A DNA stretch of 20,073 nucleotides from a virus. The position numbers and the translations under genes are program-made. The notes below the pieces were generated by a model. The model was not told the DNA's origin. It searched no databases and saw only the letters and a list, made by a program, of their open reading frames with translations. Where the stretch lies: IMG/VR virus record IMGVR_UViG_3300021413_000003, positions 1 to 20,073 of that record. One strand, written 5' to 3'. Of the stretch, positions 13,686 through 17,914 are shown piece by piece (the first letter of the stretch is position 1; every line of letters begins with the position of its first letter).

Positions 13686-15065
13686 TCAGCTACCGCTGTA
13701 CGTTATTTTCGTTACTGCTTTTGGCCTGCGGCCGAACGTGACCGCCTCGTAGCCCCACACGCCGACCCGCACCAGTGCGGGCCCCGCGGGCTGCTCGAAC
13801 TGGAACTGCATCGGCGGCGAGATCGAGAACAGGTGTTCCTGCGAGTTGACGATGAACCCGGTCGACGCGGCGACCGTCGGCGACGTCACCGCCAGAAGGT
13901 TCTCCAGGGTGCCCTGAACCGGGCTCCGGAACCCGTTCGTCGCGCCGCCCTCACCGATCGCGTTCTGCGGGCTGTAGGCCTGCGCCAGGATCAGCGGCCG
14001 GCCGGTCGTGTCCGCGAACTTCAGGTACGTCGTCCACCTGGACGTGCGGCCGACGAAGATGTCGGCGTCCCCCGCGGGGGCGTCGGAGATCGCGGCGATG
14101 CCGTCGAGGAGCCCGGCCCGCTGCGCCGCGATGTCGGTCGTGGTGAGCACACCCGCCGACACGGTGACCGCGTTGACGTTGGCCTGCCCGTTGAGGGCGA
14201 CGATGACCTCGAGCTCGGCGTTGTCGTAGAAGTCGCCCATCAGGTCGCCCCAGATGATGCCGTCGACCGCCGGGTTCGAGGCCTCCAGCATCTGCCGGGA
14301 CACCTCGGAATACCCCATGATCGCCTTCGGGGTGACCGTCAGGACCGTGTACGTCGGGTCCGTCTCGGTCGTGTTGACACCCTCGGCCACCGACGACGTC
14401 TTCGCGACGGTGCCCGCGATCGGGATGCTCCACGCGAACGGCCCGGCCCAAGGGACCTGCCGCAACTGCGCAGCCAGCCGCAGTTTGCGGTGCATCACCG
14501 GCGCGAACTGCTCCGCCAGCCACACCGGCGGGACCAGGCCAGCGCCGCCGGTCGTGGCGCCCGCGCCGAGCACGTCACGCAGGTGCACGTTGTCGCGCAG
14601 CGCGTTCGAGTGCCGCTGCAGCCGCTCGGCTGCGCCGGTGTCGCCCATCTTCGACGACCGGAACTGGTCGCCGACGAACGAGAACTGGCCGCCTCGGGTG
14701 TAGAAGCCGGGATCGCGGTCCTGGGTCTTCGCGCCGCCCAGCTTCACCGACCGGGTCTGGTCGTCGTCGGCCGACTGCTGGCCGGTGTCGGTGTCGTCGG
14801 GCTTGCCGTCGGCGATCGCGGCGTGAACCCGCTCGTTCATCGCGGCGACCTTGGCGTTGCGCAGCTCGATCTCGGACAGGTCCTCGATCTGCGTGAACAG
14901 GGACTTGGCCTTCTCGCCCTGCTCGACGACGGAGCGCAGCTCCTCGTTGGTCAGGTCGCGCTTCGCCTCGGCGGCGCGGGCCTGCAGTCCCTGAATGCTG
15001 TTCTTCAGCGCGTCGTACTGCTCGCGCAATGACTTGAGATAGACGTTGTCGGGCACGTCGGCCAC
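13686..15065 (-). CDS. Major capsid protein, HK97 fold with N-terminal scaffolding domain
   Basis: The protein has 459 residues. Residues 1-85 are a charged coiled coil (LKSLREQYDALKNSIQGLQA), the delta domain that serves as built-in scaffold and is removed by the prohead protease. A polar linker with DDTDTGQQSADDDQ follows (about 90-118). The HK97 core begins near residue 150, with GLVPPVWLAEQFAPVMHRKL, PIAGTVAKTSSVAEG, MGYSEVSRQMLEASNPAVDGII and an E-loop-like region before that. It ends in the strand VRVGVWGYEAVTFGRRPKAV. GTG at 15065 is preferred since AGGA lies five bases upstream; GTG at 15056 is the alternative. The gene follows the protease after 100 bases and is followed by a strong hairpin. 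Confidence 0.93.
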   Translation of the reverse strand: MADVPDNVYLKSLREQYDALKNSIQGLQARAAEAKRDLTNEELRSVVEQGEKAKSLFTQIEDLSEIELRNAKVAAMNERVHAAIADGKPDDTDTGQQSADDDQTRSVKLGGAKTQDRDPGFYTRGGQFSFVGDQFRSSKMGDTGAAERLQRHSNALRDNVHLRDVLGAGATTGGAGLVPPVWLAEQFAPVMHRKLRLAAQLRQVPWAGPFAWSIPIAGTVAKTSSVAEGVNTTETDPTYTVLTVTPKAIMGYSEVSRQMLEASNPAVDGIIWGDLMGDFYDNAELEVIVALNGQANVNAVTVSAGVLTTTDIAAQRAGLLDGIAAISDAPAGDADIFVGRTSRWTTYLKFADTTGRPLILAQAYSPQNAIGEGGATNGFRSPVQGTLENLLAVTSPTVAASTGFIVNSQEHLFSISPPMQFQFEQPAGPALVRVGVWGYEAVTFGRRPKAVTKITYSGS

Positions 15066-15165
15066 CCATTTCCTGGTCAGACGGAATCGGTAGCTCCGAG
15101 TGACCGGGGTGGCCGCATCGAGGGGCGGGGGTGGCGGTCCTATGTTTTGCGAAGAGGTTAGCAGG
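15066..15165. other. Intergenic leader before the major capsid gene
   Basis: These 100 bases between protease and capsid are the longest non-coding stretch in the minus-strand operon. The strand that carries the genes has a short AT-rich patch, CGCAAAACATAGGAC (about 15154-15140), in an otherwise GC-rich surrounding, then a C-rich run and the capsid ribosome site. TAGGAC is four-of-six like an actinomycete -10 box, but no good -35 lies 16-18 bases upstream. A capsid-specific promoter is therefore possible but not supported well enough to call. Confidence 0.3.
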
Positions 15166-15780
15166 TCAGTACGGCATACCCAGCTGAATGGACCGCATCG
15201 CCAGCTCATGATCGGTGGGATCCGGCAGACCGGAGCCCATCAGGAACTCCTCAGCGGCCGCCCGCAGATCCAGGTCGTTCGCCGCCGCCGGCAACTGGGC
15301 CGAACGGACACCGACCGCCGTAGCCAGTTCGCCGTACGCGCCCTGCATGACGACGGCGACCTCCGCCAGGTCGGCCTTGACCCGTTCGGTGACCCCGCCG
15401 GCAAGCCGGCGGTTCTGCCGCTCCCGGAACATGATCGACAACTGGTCCAGTGCGCCGTCCTTGACCAGCTCGAGCGTGGCGTCACCGGTCGGGGTCCGCG
15501 CCGCCCGCAACTCGACGTACAGACCGGCGGCGTCGTCACGCATCGCCGACGCCGAACCGATCAGCTCGCCGCCCAGCAGGACGTGCTCGCGGGCGAACTT
15601 CACCCGCGACGGCTTGGCCATCTGGTGGGAGAACGCACCGCGGGCGAACTGCTCGACCAGCGAGTCATCGATCCGGGTCGGCGCGTTCCACGGCACCGCG
15701 ATCCCGTAGATGGTGCGACCGTCCCCGCCGGAGCGCACCTCGAGGTCCGGGGCGAACGACCGGTAGTGCGTCTCGTTCAC
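15166..15780 (-). CDS. HK97-type prohead maturation protease
   Basis: The protein has 204 residues. Strand GRTIYGIAVPWNAPT (21-35) opens the fold. KFAREHVLLGGELIGSA carries the catalytic His66, and LDQLSIMFRERQ carries Ser115. LAEVAVVMQGAYG (138-150) ends the core with an acidic residue at 140 that fits the third catalytic position. It should cut the delta domain from capsid subunits inside the prohead. The C-terminal 40 residues are helical and end HELAMRSIQLGMPY. GTG at 15780 overlaps the upstream stop as GTGA; the longer in-frame option at 15852 adds arginine-rich shadow. It sits immediately before the capsid gene, as usual. Size and motifs agree with the family. Confidence 0.9.
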   Translation of the reverse strand: MNETHYRSFAPDLEVRSGGDGRTIYGIAVPWNAPTRIDDSLVEQFARGAFSHQMAKPSRVKFAREHVLLGGELIGSASAMRDDAAGLYVELRAARTPTGDATLELVKDGALDQLSIMFRERQNRRLAGGVTERVKADLAEVAVVMQGAYGELATAVGVRSAQLPAAANDLDLRAAAEEFLMGSGLPDPTDHELAMRSIQLGMPY

Positions 15781-16016
15781 GGCGTCGCCGCCTTCACGTG
15801 CTCGGCGCGCGGCGTCCCGTCCGCCTTGTAGCGCATGGCGTGCGCCGAGCACACCTTGCCGTTGACGGCCCGGCCCATGTGCGCGGTGCCGTCATCGACC
15901 ACACAGTCGCCCGGGGCCTTCTTGGGCGCGCCATCGCCCGGGTCGGCGGTAGCGGCCGGCGGCGGCTCGTTGCCGACCGTCACGGGGTTGATCTTGTTCT
16001 CTGCAGGCCTAGCCAT
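15777..16016 (-). CDS. Small Cys/His protein, possible metal-binding, unknown function
   Basis: The protein has 79 residues. The first 35 are Pro/Ala-rich and probably disordered. The rest contains Cys38, His46, Cys56 and His59 in CVVDDGTAHMGRAVNGKVCSAH, followed by RYKADGTPR. This resembles a worn form of the small zinc motif seen in phage HNH-type proteins (Cys...Gly-x-Cys-x2-His...Arg...Gly-Thr-Pro), with one cysteine missing, so binding is uncertain. ATG at 16016 has GAGGAG six bases upstream, and the stop overlaps the protease start as GTGA. It lies between portal extension and protease, where it could be a head-assembly accessory or scaffold-like protein; nothing in the sequence proves this. 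Confidence 0.65.
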   Translation of the reverse strand: MARPAENKINPVTVGNEPPPAATADPGDGAPKKAPGDCVVDDGTAHMGRAVNGKVCSAHAMRYKADGTPRAEHVKAATP

Positions 16017-16025
16017 GACTGCTCC

Positions 16026-17914
16026 TCACTGCGTGCCCATTAGTGTCGCGATCGCCTGGTCGAGCTTCTTCAAGGCCTGCGGGGACCGGGTGCGGAAGTC
16101 CTCGCCCCCGGAGCCACCCACGGTCGTCCGCGGAGCGAGGGAGAAGAACATCTCGCTGTCGATGGCCTCTTCGCCGGCGACCGTGATGTAGTCGCCGCCC
16201 TCTTCGCGGGTGGCGGACCATTCGAGATCACCCCAACGCGTGCCGTGGATGACGCCCTTGGCGATGTCCGCGTCGGTGCTGGGCCACTCGTCCACCGGCA
16301 GGCCCGCCTTGATCGCCTTGCGCAGCTCCGCCCGGTAGTCGGCGACGCTGCGCTTCCCGGCGTCGAGCGAGCGCCGGATGGCCGCCTGAAGCTCGCCCGC
16401 CTGTGCGACGTCCAGCTCGACGGTGCGGCCCTTGGGTTCGGCCGCCCACCGGCGCCGATCCTCCGACGGGACGATCCCGAGACGGATACGCGTGCCCTTC
16501 GGGCCGTCTACGCGGGCGAGCACGGCGGACACGCCTTGGTTTTTCTCGTCCACCGCGGCGCTGCCGGCGAAACGCTCATCCGGGTCGAGCTTGATCCGGC
16601 CGGCCAGCTTCAGTACGTCGCCGACGGACGGGCCGGGGATCCCGTCGCCCCACTCCCCGTCGGGGTCGCGCGGCTGGGCCGGGTTGAACGACCGGGCGCC
16701 GGTGGCGCTTTTGGGTAGGCACCACCCCCGCCGGGCGTCGGGCGGAGGTCGTTGAACGGATCCGGGTCCGGCTGCTTGTCCGGCATGGGCGCCCGGTGCT
16801 CGTATTCGCGCACCTCGTCGACGTCCAGGAACGGCTGTCCGCCGAGCGCGATCGAATGCGCCTGGTAGCGGGTCAGGGTGTCGGCGCGCAACACCGCGTC
16901 CAGGTTCGCCCGGGCCACCGTATCGGTCGGATACACCAGCGACAGGGTCTGCTCGAACCGAGCGAAGTGCCCGCCGAGAGAGAACTTCAGCAGGTTGACG
17001 GCGTCCTGCTCGATGTTGGCGTAGGTGCGCGACGACGTCTGGCCGCCGAGCCAGCCCACTGGCAGGCCGAAGACGAGCTCCAGTTCGGTGAGGCTCATCT
17101 TGCGGGCTTCCACCAGTTGCAGCTGCTCCGGATTCCACGACAGCGGCGTGAACTTCGTCGCCGAGTTCAAAACCGCCACCGTGCGGGTCTGCTGCGACGC
17201 CAGCCACGCCGACTTCATGTCGGCGGCCTCATCGTCGGTCAGATCCGGGTTGGACGACTCCAGAATCCCCGTCGGCACCCCATGCGCCGACAACGAGCGG
17301 GCCTGCCGTGATTGGTCCGTGGCCAGCGAGAATGTGTTCAGATGCGCCTCGAGGACGCCCATTCCCCGCACGGCGCCCGGCTTACAGGGCCCTTTGATGT
17401 GGATGACGTCCTGGCTGCCCAGTTTCATCGACCCGATCGAATACTCGAGCGCGCCGACCGGCAGCGGCGACGACGCGAACGGAGTGATCCGGCGCACCCC
17501 GACGTTGCAGGCCTGCACCGGGATCGCCGCGGTCGGCTGGCCGAACGCGTCACGGGCCGCGATCACCCCGACCGCGTTGCCTTCCCAGATCAGATCCAAC
17601 GCCCAGGACGAGAACGTGGACATCCGGGTGTCCGGCGGGTTCGGCTGCTCGAGCAGCGGCGGCGTGGGCTGCAGCTTCTCCTCCGGCCGGCCGGACGGCT
17701 GACGGTAGGCGTTCCACGGCACCTGCCCGATCAGGTCGGACAGCAGCGTCGACGCCCGCCACGCGCCGGGAATCCCCATCGCACCCTGATATGTGGACAC
17801 GCTGGGCCAGTCCGGGCCCAGATTGTCGAGGACCGTGTACGTCGCGGTCGCGCCAGTCACGGTGTCGGTCGCCGTGTACTGCGTCGACCTCGTGAACAGC
17901 CGACCGAGTCCCAC
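16026..17914 (-). CDS. Portal protein with C-terminal extension, predicted -1 frameshift product
   Basis: A -1 slip at CCCAAAA (16715-16709) would join portal residues 1-402 to a 227-residue continuation ending at 16026, giving 629 residues. The continuation starts SATGARSFNPAQPRDPDGEW, a linker-like segment often seen in phage head proteins, then VGDVLKLAGRIKLDPDERF. A beta-rich region and helices follow, with LRKAIKAGLPVDEW in the middle and SPQALKKLDQAIATLM at the end. It is not MuF-like by any motif I can see. In its frame there is no ATG, GTG or TTG for more than 150 bases upstream of the heptamer. The first downstream one, GTG 16553, lacks a ribosome site and would cut off the ordered start. 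A sequencing error is the main alternative. Confidence 0.7.
16610..17914 (-). CDS. Portal protein (zero-frame product)
   Basis: The zero-frame product has 434 residues, of the HK97/SPP1-type portal family. It forms the dodecameric ring at the capsid vertex through which DNA passes. Landmarks are PGAWRASTLLSDLIGQVPW (49-67), the WALDLIWEGNAVGVI segment (104-118), SQDVIHIKG (167-175), GVLEAHLNTFSLA (186-198) and the family motif VFGLPVGWLGGQTSSRTYANIEQ split over 281-303. The last 32 residues after Lys402 are Pro/Ser/Thr/Arg-rich and have the codon pattern of an out-of-frame stretch. GTG at 17914 directly follows the stop of the preceding gene, with GGGGAAG seven bases before. The portal identity is firm; the C-terminus is discussed with the frameshift. 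Confidence 0.92.
   Translation of the reverse strand: MGLGRLFTRSTQYTATDTVTGATATYTVLDNLGPDWPSVSTYQGAMGIPGAWRASTLLSDLIGQVPWNAYRQPSGRPEEKLQPTPPLLEQPNPPDTRMSTFSSWALDLIWEGNAVGVIAARDAFGQPTAAIPVQACNVGVRRITPFASSPLPVGALEYSIGSMKLGSQDVIHIKGPCKPGAVRGMGVLEAHLNTFSLATDQSRQARSLSAHGVPTGILESSNPDLTDDEAADMKSAWLASQQTRTVAVLNSATKFTPLSWNPEQLQLVEARKMSLTELELVFGLPVGWLGGQTSSRTYANIEQDAVNLLKFSLGGHFARFEQTLSLVYPTDTVARANLDAVLRADTLTRYQAHSIALGGQPFLDVDEVREYEHRAPMPDKQPDPDPFNDLRPTPGGGGAYPKAPPAPGRSTRPSRATPTGSGATGSPARPSATY
16709..16715 (-). other. Predicted -1 slippery heptamer CCCAAAA in the portal gene
   Basis: The portal frame reads TAC CCA AAA GCG, which gives C CCA AAA, an ideal X XXY YYZ heptamer. After it the -1 frame reads AGC GCC ACC GGC and ends nearly every codon in G or C, while the portal frame drops to about three quarters. 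Before it the situation is reversed. Short GC-rich hairpins follow directly, such as GCGCC-ACC-GGCGC and CCCC-GAC-GGGG, and could stimulate slipping, although the first begins unusually close to the heptamer. Confidence 0.7.

Follow-up and report, generated by a model that had tools for sequence, protein, structure and literature searches.

A predicted programmed −1 frameshift in a phage portal gene that would give a minority of portal subunits a C-terminal payload

The portal gene of the soil phage described here very probably uses programmed −1 frameshifting to equip a minority of the portal subunits with a C-terminal payload, as judged from sequence. The stretch of DNA analyzed (the window) is a virus record of 20,073 bases, in which the head genes are located on the minus strand in the usual order of terminase, two short open reading frames (ORFs), portal, one short ORF, head maturation protease, and major head protein (Table 1). 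The portal in its 0 frame matches Pfam PF04860 (Phage_portal, E=2.7e-46, residues 51 to 372) and the PHROG 12 portal family (E=1.2e-43), so that an HK97-type portal domain is present. Between the head and tail genes, at 13614-11151 on the minus strand, are glycosyltransferase-like and NAD-dependent sugar epimerase-like ORFs (MRVGITGAAGFIGQW...).

Table 1. Positions of the portal frames, the candidate frameshift signals, the payload, and neighboring head genes in the window
Feature	Position	Strand	Remark
Terminase large subunit	19958-18396	−	PHROG 9; portal downstream
Portal, 0 frame, unshifted product	16610..17914	−	GTG start, 434 aa
SD-like element GGGGGTGGTGCC directly upstream of slip	16718..16729	−	anti-SD pairing
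Slippery heptamer C CCA AAA	16709..16715	−	X XXY YYZ register; kept in 7/7 cases
−1-frame extension, C-terminal part of 629-aa product	16026..16715	−	229 codons plus stop
Adaptor motif FNPAQPRDPDGEW at payload start	16650..16688	−	residues 10-22 of extension
0-frame stop TGA of short portal	16610..16612	−	103 nt past heptamer start
Payload domain, predicted Pur-alpha (PUR repeat) type fold	16038..16580	−	AlphaFold2 plus Foldseek
Head maturation protease	15166..15786	−	PHROG 80, E=1.1e-21
Major head protein	13686..15209	−	PHROG 2263, E=8.6e-23

The slip site and its surroundings

The initial annotation had placed a slippery heptamer in the correct register of the portal gene, and the reading TA[C CCA AAA] at 16715-16709 bears this out. 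It is the sole in-register CCCAAAA of the portal gene; the coding strand of the window contains one CCCAAAA, compared to 0.35 expected in 20 kb under a first-order Markov model. The −1 frame ends with a stop at 16028-16026, and its 229 codons include the P and K of the slip, which together with the 400 preceding codons yields the shifted product of 629 residues that had been predicted. The G/C content at third codon positions (GC3) passes from the portal frame to the −1 frame at the slip, again as proposed: it was 0.90 in the 0 frame versus 0.43 in the −1 frame within the 300 nt upstream of the slip, 0.77 versus 1.00 from the slip to the 0-frame stop, and 0.78 versus 0.88 in the 300 nt beyond this stop. 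Two statements needed correction. The −1 frame was said to possess no start codon for more than 150 bases upstream, which is true but understated, since the closest ATG, GTG, or TTG is at −423 nt. The first one downstream is a GTG at +162, and these two positions rule out an independent start of this kind for the window extension. The adaptor motif, said to follow directly after the slip, is close to it, albeit nine residues into the extension.

A stimulatory element may be located upstream of the slip. The 20 nt preceding the heptamer pair with the anti-SD sequence at −17.8 kcal/mol, the top value of about 1,070 positions scanned in the portal gene, and the window thus possesses the internal SD about 10 nt upstream that characterizes stimulators of bacterial −1 sites. 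Its spacing resembles that of the stimulator in Escherichia coli dnaX. Among the seven contigs with this arrangement (the window and the six described below), the slip ranks first among all anti-SD positions scanned in the portal gene in five, the window, L002, L027, L037, and L101, with energies of −14.7 to −17.8 kcal/mol for pairing with the 16S 3' end; L061, L098, and a further contig, L076, have the slip within the top 1 to 4%. Folding of the downstream RNA, calculated without pseudoknots, did not surpass that of shuffles with equal composition in the window (z value of −0.27) or in most others. L037 gave a z value of −2.6; GC-rich sequence of this kind folds anyway. A hairpin GCGCC-N3-GGCGC right after the heptamer in the window and L002 was rejected as a conserved signal because it is absent elsewhere and does not exceed the shuffles.

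The same arrangement in other contigs

The same layout is present, at the level of sequence, in six other phage contigs that belong to two portal groups; in the comparison that the initial annotation had proposed, related portals (L002, L027, L037, L061, L098, and L101) keep both the heptamer and a −1 continuation. A search with the window portal as query yielded 23 viral loci, among them L002 with a portal 98% identical at the protein level, the same heptamer, a −1 extension sharing 54% identity with the window extension, and likewise no start codon for it. The differences between the window and L002 are distributed as 6/3/37 over positions 1/2/3 of the 0-frame codons upstream of the slip and as 23/25/48 over those of the −1-frame codons downstream. 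Both frames are, judged by these substitutions, constrained as protein, each on its own side of the slip. The close portals L003 to L018 have neither an in-register CCCAAAA nor such an extension and are followed by a different gene.

The remaining five contigs (L027, L037, L061, L098, and L101) have the same layout in a portal group without BLASTP similarity to the body of the window portal. L027 was found by a search with the extension; by BLASTP, its portal resembles the window portal nowhere save for the region from slip to stop, and PF04860 is present in both. The portal of L037 shares 94% identity with its counterpart in L027 and has the same heptamer, followed by a different −1 payload. 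The homologous −1 extensions are 54% (L101, where the contig ends inside), 42% (L027), and 41% (L098, incomplete) identical to that of the window in amino acid sequence. The GC3 frame switch at the slip recurs in L002, L027, and L101, is weaker in L037, and is ambiguous in L098.

How these contigs were found determines their weight. L002, L027, and L037 were recovered without the heptamer as criterion. L061, L098, and L101, portals with −1 payloads, were obtained together with L076 by a DNA pattern derived from these cases, GGNGRTGCCNNCCCAAAAGC, and do not provide independent support for the heptamer because they were found through it; many of the 49 matches of this pattern are plainly due to chance, with the 0 frame just continuing. 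The seven cases are without exception virus contigs taken from sequence collections. Among the relatives looked for, none that is cultured carries the extension, and GGTGRTGCCNNCCCAAAAGC had no match in 395 actinomycete genomes, nor did a motif scan of genome contigs yield any.

A survey set of 103 loci was collected by portal protein similarity alone, with near-duplicates dropped. An in-register CCCAAAA no more than 130 nt before the stop of the portal was found in 3 of them, L002, L106 (which is L027), and L107 (which is L037), and the same three loci are those carrying a −1 payload. About 70 relatives of the L061 portal have no in-register CCCAAAA at that position except L061 itself (L208). 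A mechanical test for start-less −1 frames was noisy: 7 of 100 heptamer-free loci passed it with Arg/Pro/Ser-rich frames that are not protein-like. GGGTTTC heptamers occurring in many portals were discounted as slip sites because they encode a conserved Gly-Phe codon pair.

Adaptor motif, payloads, and competing explanations

Close to the beginning of each extension is an adaptor motif of the type [FY][ND]P.Q.RDPDGEW or related to it, which is kept in L002, L027, and L101 and occurs as variants in L037, L098, and L061; the payload beyond this motif differs between phages. The initial annotation had asked whether the same domain is fused in frame elsewhere. The window form of the motif, with related domains, is indeed fused in frame to the Mu-type portals of L025, L031, and L032, with PF06074 matches in L025 and L031. 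Several of the surveyed portals are in-frame fusions too, including that of L135, which contains an ADP-ribosyltransferase (E=5.4e-28). An ORF of L028 (2388-4448) carries the motif and a related domain at its N terminus, in addition to a peptidoglycan-binding domain and an S78 head maturation protease. The in-frame fusions of L025 (2898), L031 (1645), and L238 (3706) possess an in-register CCCAAAA close to the portal-payload boundary and a −1 frame that closes after 8 to 11 codons, which could produce a short portal by reverse use of the signal. No SD-like element was found at these three heptamers, where 34 to 93% of the positions are equally strong, and the linkers concerned are rich in Pro and Lys.

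The payload domains themselves are diverse. Separate AlphaFold2 runs for the extensions of two different contigs gave a pLDDT of 67 (window) and 73 (L002), and Foldseek against the PDB returned Pur-alpha as all of the top 8 and top 11 matches, respectively, with best E values of 9e-6 and 4e-5. The TM-scores to Pur-alpha were low (0.34 to 0.40 by query and 0.48 to 0.58 by target), and the window payload had no Pfam match and no PDB sequence match to PUR-repeat proteins, so that the Pur-alpha fold should be regarded as a lead. Pur-alpha is a single-strand nucleic-acid binder. No MuF domain was detected, and the extension had no Pfam or PHROG match at E≤1. The −1 payload of L061 matches the ADP-ribosyltransferase family ADPrib_exo_Tox of Pfam (E=1e-15).

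Evaluation of the frameshift needs to consider whether the extension may be a separate gene, translated by termination-reinitiation where a start overlaps the portal stop. Such an overlap is offered by a CTG at +102 in the window and at +99 in L002 (both CTGA) and by a TTG at +93 in L027 (TTGA), and coupled starts are common, since most homologous portals and most other surveyed portals precede a gene with its own start, often overlapping as ATGA or GTGA. Reinitiation at CTGA or TTGA would nevertheless omit the adaptor motif, which is upstream of that codon, is the most conserved part of the extension, shows a coding signal in the −1 frame, and occurs on other portals as an in-frame fusion. 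The CTGA and TTGA sequences are explained by conserved Leu-Lys codons of the payload, as the 0-frame TGA is located inside −1-frame Leu-Lys codons (CTGAAG, CTGAAA, TTGAAG) in 5 of the 7 cases, and no stop-overlapping start exists in L098 and L061. Possible starts inside the payload are the TTG of L027, a GTG at +15 and an ATG at +69 in L061, and an ATG at +135 in L037, and these might be used as well. None of the homologues offers a start of its own that would serve the entire extension; the initial annotation had named such a start as speaking against a frameshift. Reinitiation would also leave the heptamer and the SD-like element unexplained and is, therefore, improbable.

A base error or a recent indel, which the initial annotation had likewise named as speaking against a frameshift, would mean that the true gene is a single in-frame portal fusion that has been misread or broken, and the in-frame fusions of L025, L031, L032, and L135 demonstrate that such genes exist. 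The −1 relation, however, occurs at the same heptamer in seven contigs, with extensions 41 to 54% identical to that of the window or unrelated to it. A sequencing error is excluded because independent contigs, L002 and five others, keep the arrangement, and the separate constraint of each frame on its own side of the slip is not expected from an indel error, which makes this explanation very improbable. Transcriptional slippage at the run of four A at the slip is the least credible source of a −1 product, because it explains neither the in-register X XXY YYZ heptamer nor the anti-SD element at translational spacing, and slippage of this type in bacteria ordinarily requires A or T runs of greater length.

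Proposed mechanism and relation to known frameshifts

If programmed frameshifting is responsible, the majority of the ribosomes would read C CCA AAA in frame and terminate at the 0-frame stop, leading to the 434-residue portal. A minority would pause at the upstream SD-like element, tRNA-Pro and tRNA-Lys would slip one base back onto CCC AAA, and translation would continue for 227 more codons into a product composed of the portal and a C-terminal payload with the adaptor motif and the Pur-alpha-like domain. In co-assembled rings, a few of the twelve subunits would then bear the payload. Portals have their C-terminal crown oriented toward the inside of the head, so that the payload would probably be directed into the head and sit there at the unique vertex, where it might bind packaged DNA, assist in packaging, or be virion-borne cargo, which in L061 would be an ADP-ribosyltransferase. 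We infer the slippage itself, its rate, and the incorporation of the payload into the virion, as well as its location and function.

The literature describes frameshifting for tail chaperones, capsid proteins, and tail-tube proteins, as well as portal-MuF and MuF-VIP2 fusions that are made in frame (PMC5009743, PMC6316719, PMC7881722, PMC7302621, PMC10885494). Full-text literature searches, with most subscription papers outside their scope, found no portal frameshift, and the portal is unmentioned in the review text consulted on frameshifted structural proteins. As far as the lambda G/GT type of −1 frameshift in tail assembly chaperones (Xu, Hendrix and Duda 2004) is described in PMC6316719 and PMC7911831, it shares with the present case an X XXY YYZ heptamer shortly before the first frame terminates, a start-less −1 extension, and two products per gene; it differs in that the gene here encodes a portal and the extension is a large folded payload that is swapped between phages. 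Frameshifted structural proteins such as T7 10A/10B, those of Lactobacillus phage A2 and Listeria phage PSA, SPP1 17.1*, and proteins with Ig-like extensions (PMC5009743, PMC6316719, PMC7881722) likewise carry a C-terminal extra domain on a minority of the copies in a ring or shell, but all of them are capsid or tail-tube proteins, with no portal among them. In Microbacterium phages (PMC7302621), the portal-MuF and MuF-VIP2 fusions resemble the present case by a C-terminal payload on the portal or an ADP-ribosyltransferase on a head protein; they are in frame without a frameshift, which indicates that all copies carry the payload. In MuF polymorphic toxins and SPP1 gp7 (PMC5576092), MuF is encoded by a gene of its own that follows the portal gene, unlike here, where no MuF domain was detected and the low copy number would be determined by frameshifting itself. 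Frameshifting could in this way reach a low payload copy number by another route.

Slip signals were also observed at other genes. L076 contains the same cassette (GGTGATGCCNNCCCAAAAGC, GGTGATGCCGACCCAAAAGC) with the heptamer at 1094-1088 on the minus strand, a 0-frame stop 10 nt past the heptamer start, and a 119-codon −1 extension; it is probably a tail assembly chaperone because the gene is located directly before a tape-measure-like gene. In the window, an ORF pair at 7707-7175 on the minus strand lies just before a long tape-measure-like ORF (7185-5221). Its first ORF has an in-register CCCTTTA at 7411-7405 with a 78-codon −1 continuation, which in this position probably represents the frameshift customary for tail assembly chaperones, although neither part has a PHROG match. 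An assignment of the portal heptamer to this chaperone was wrong, since CCCTTTA alone is in register there. In L058 and L081, the same slip cassette is located in a long ORF, and the −1 frame of 399 codons is similar to an AAA-type ATPase, which is possibly another frameshift or just a pair of overlapping genes.

A tentative extension of the frameshift reading, possible though not favored, is that of a mobile slip-plus-payload cassette. Frameshift signal, adaptor motif, and an exchangeable domain (the Pur-alpha-like DNA binder, the ADP-ribosyltransferase, or others) would have been joined to distant portal lineages, and frameshifting, in place of a separate gene, would set the payload number at the unique vertex, perhaps so that the payload is delivered into the host bacterium.

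Portals, the passage for DNA into and out of the head, are commonly regarded as uniform rings of twelve subunits. Gene finders truncate portals of this kind and overlook the second frame. Through its ADP-ribosyltransferase payload, L061 ties the case to virion-borne phage effectors, among them T4 Alt and the MuF toxins. If a fixed share of the subunits has a payload inside the head, ring asymmetry, binding of the DNA end, or cargo loading at the unique vertex would become testable, and the payload number would be fixed by ribosome slippage instead of by a separate gene.
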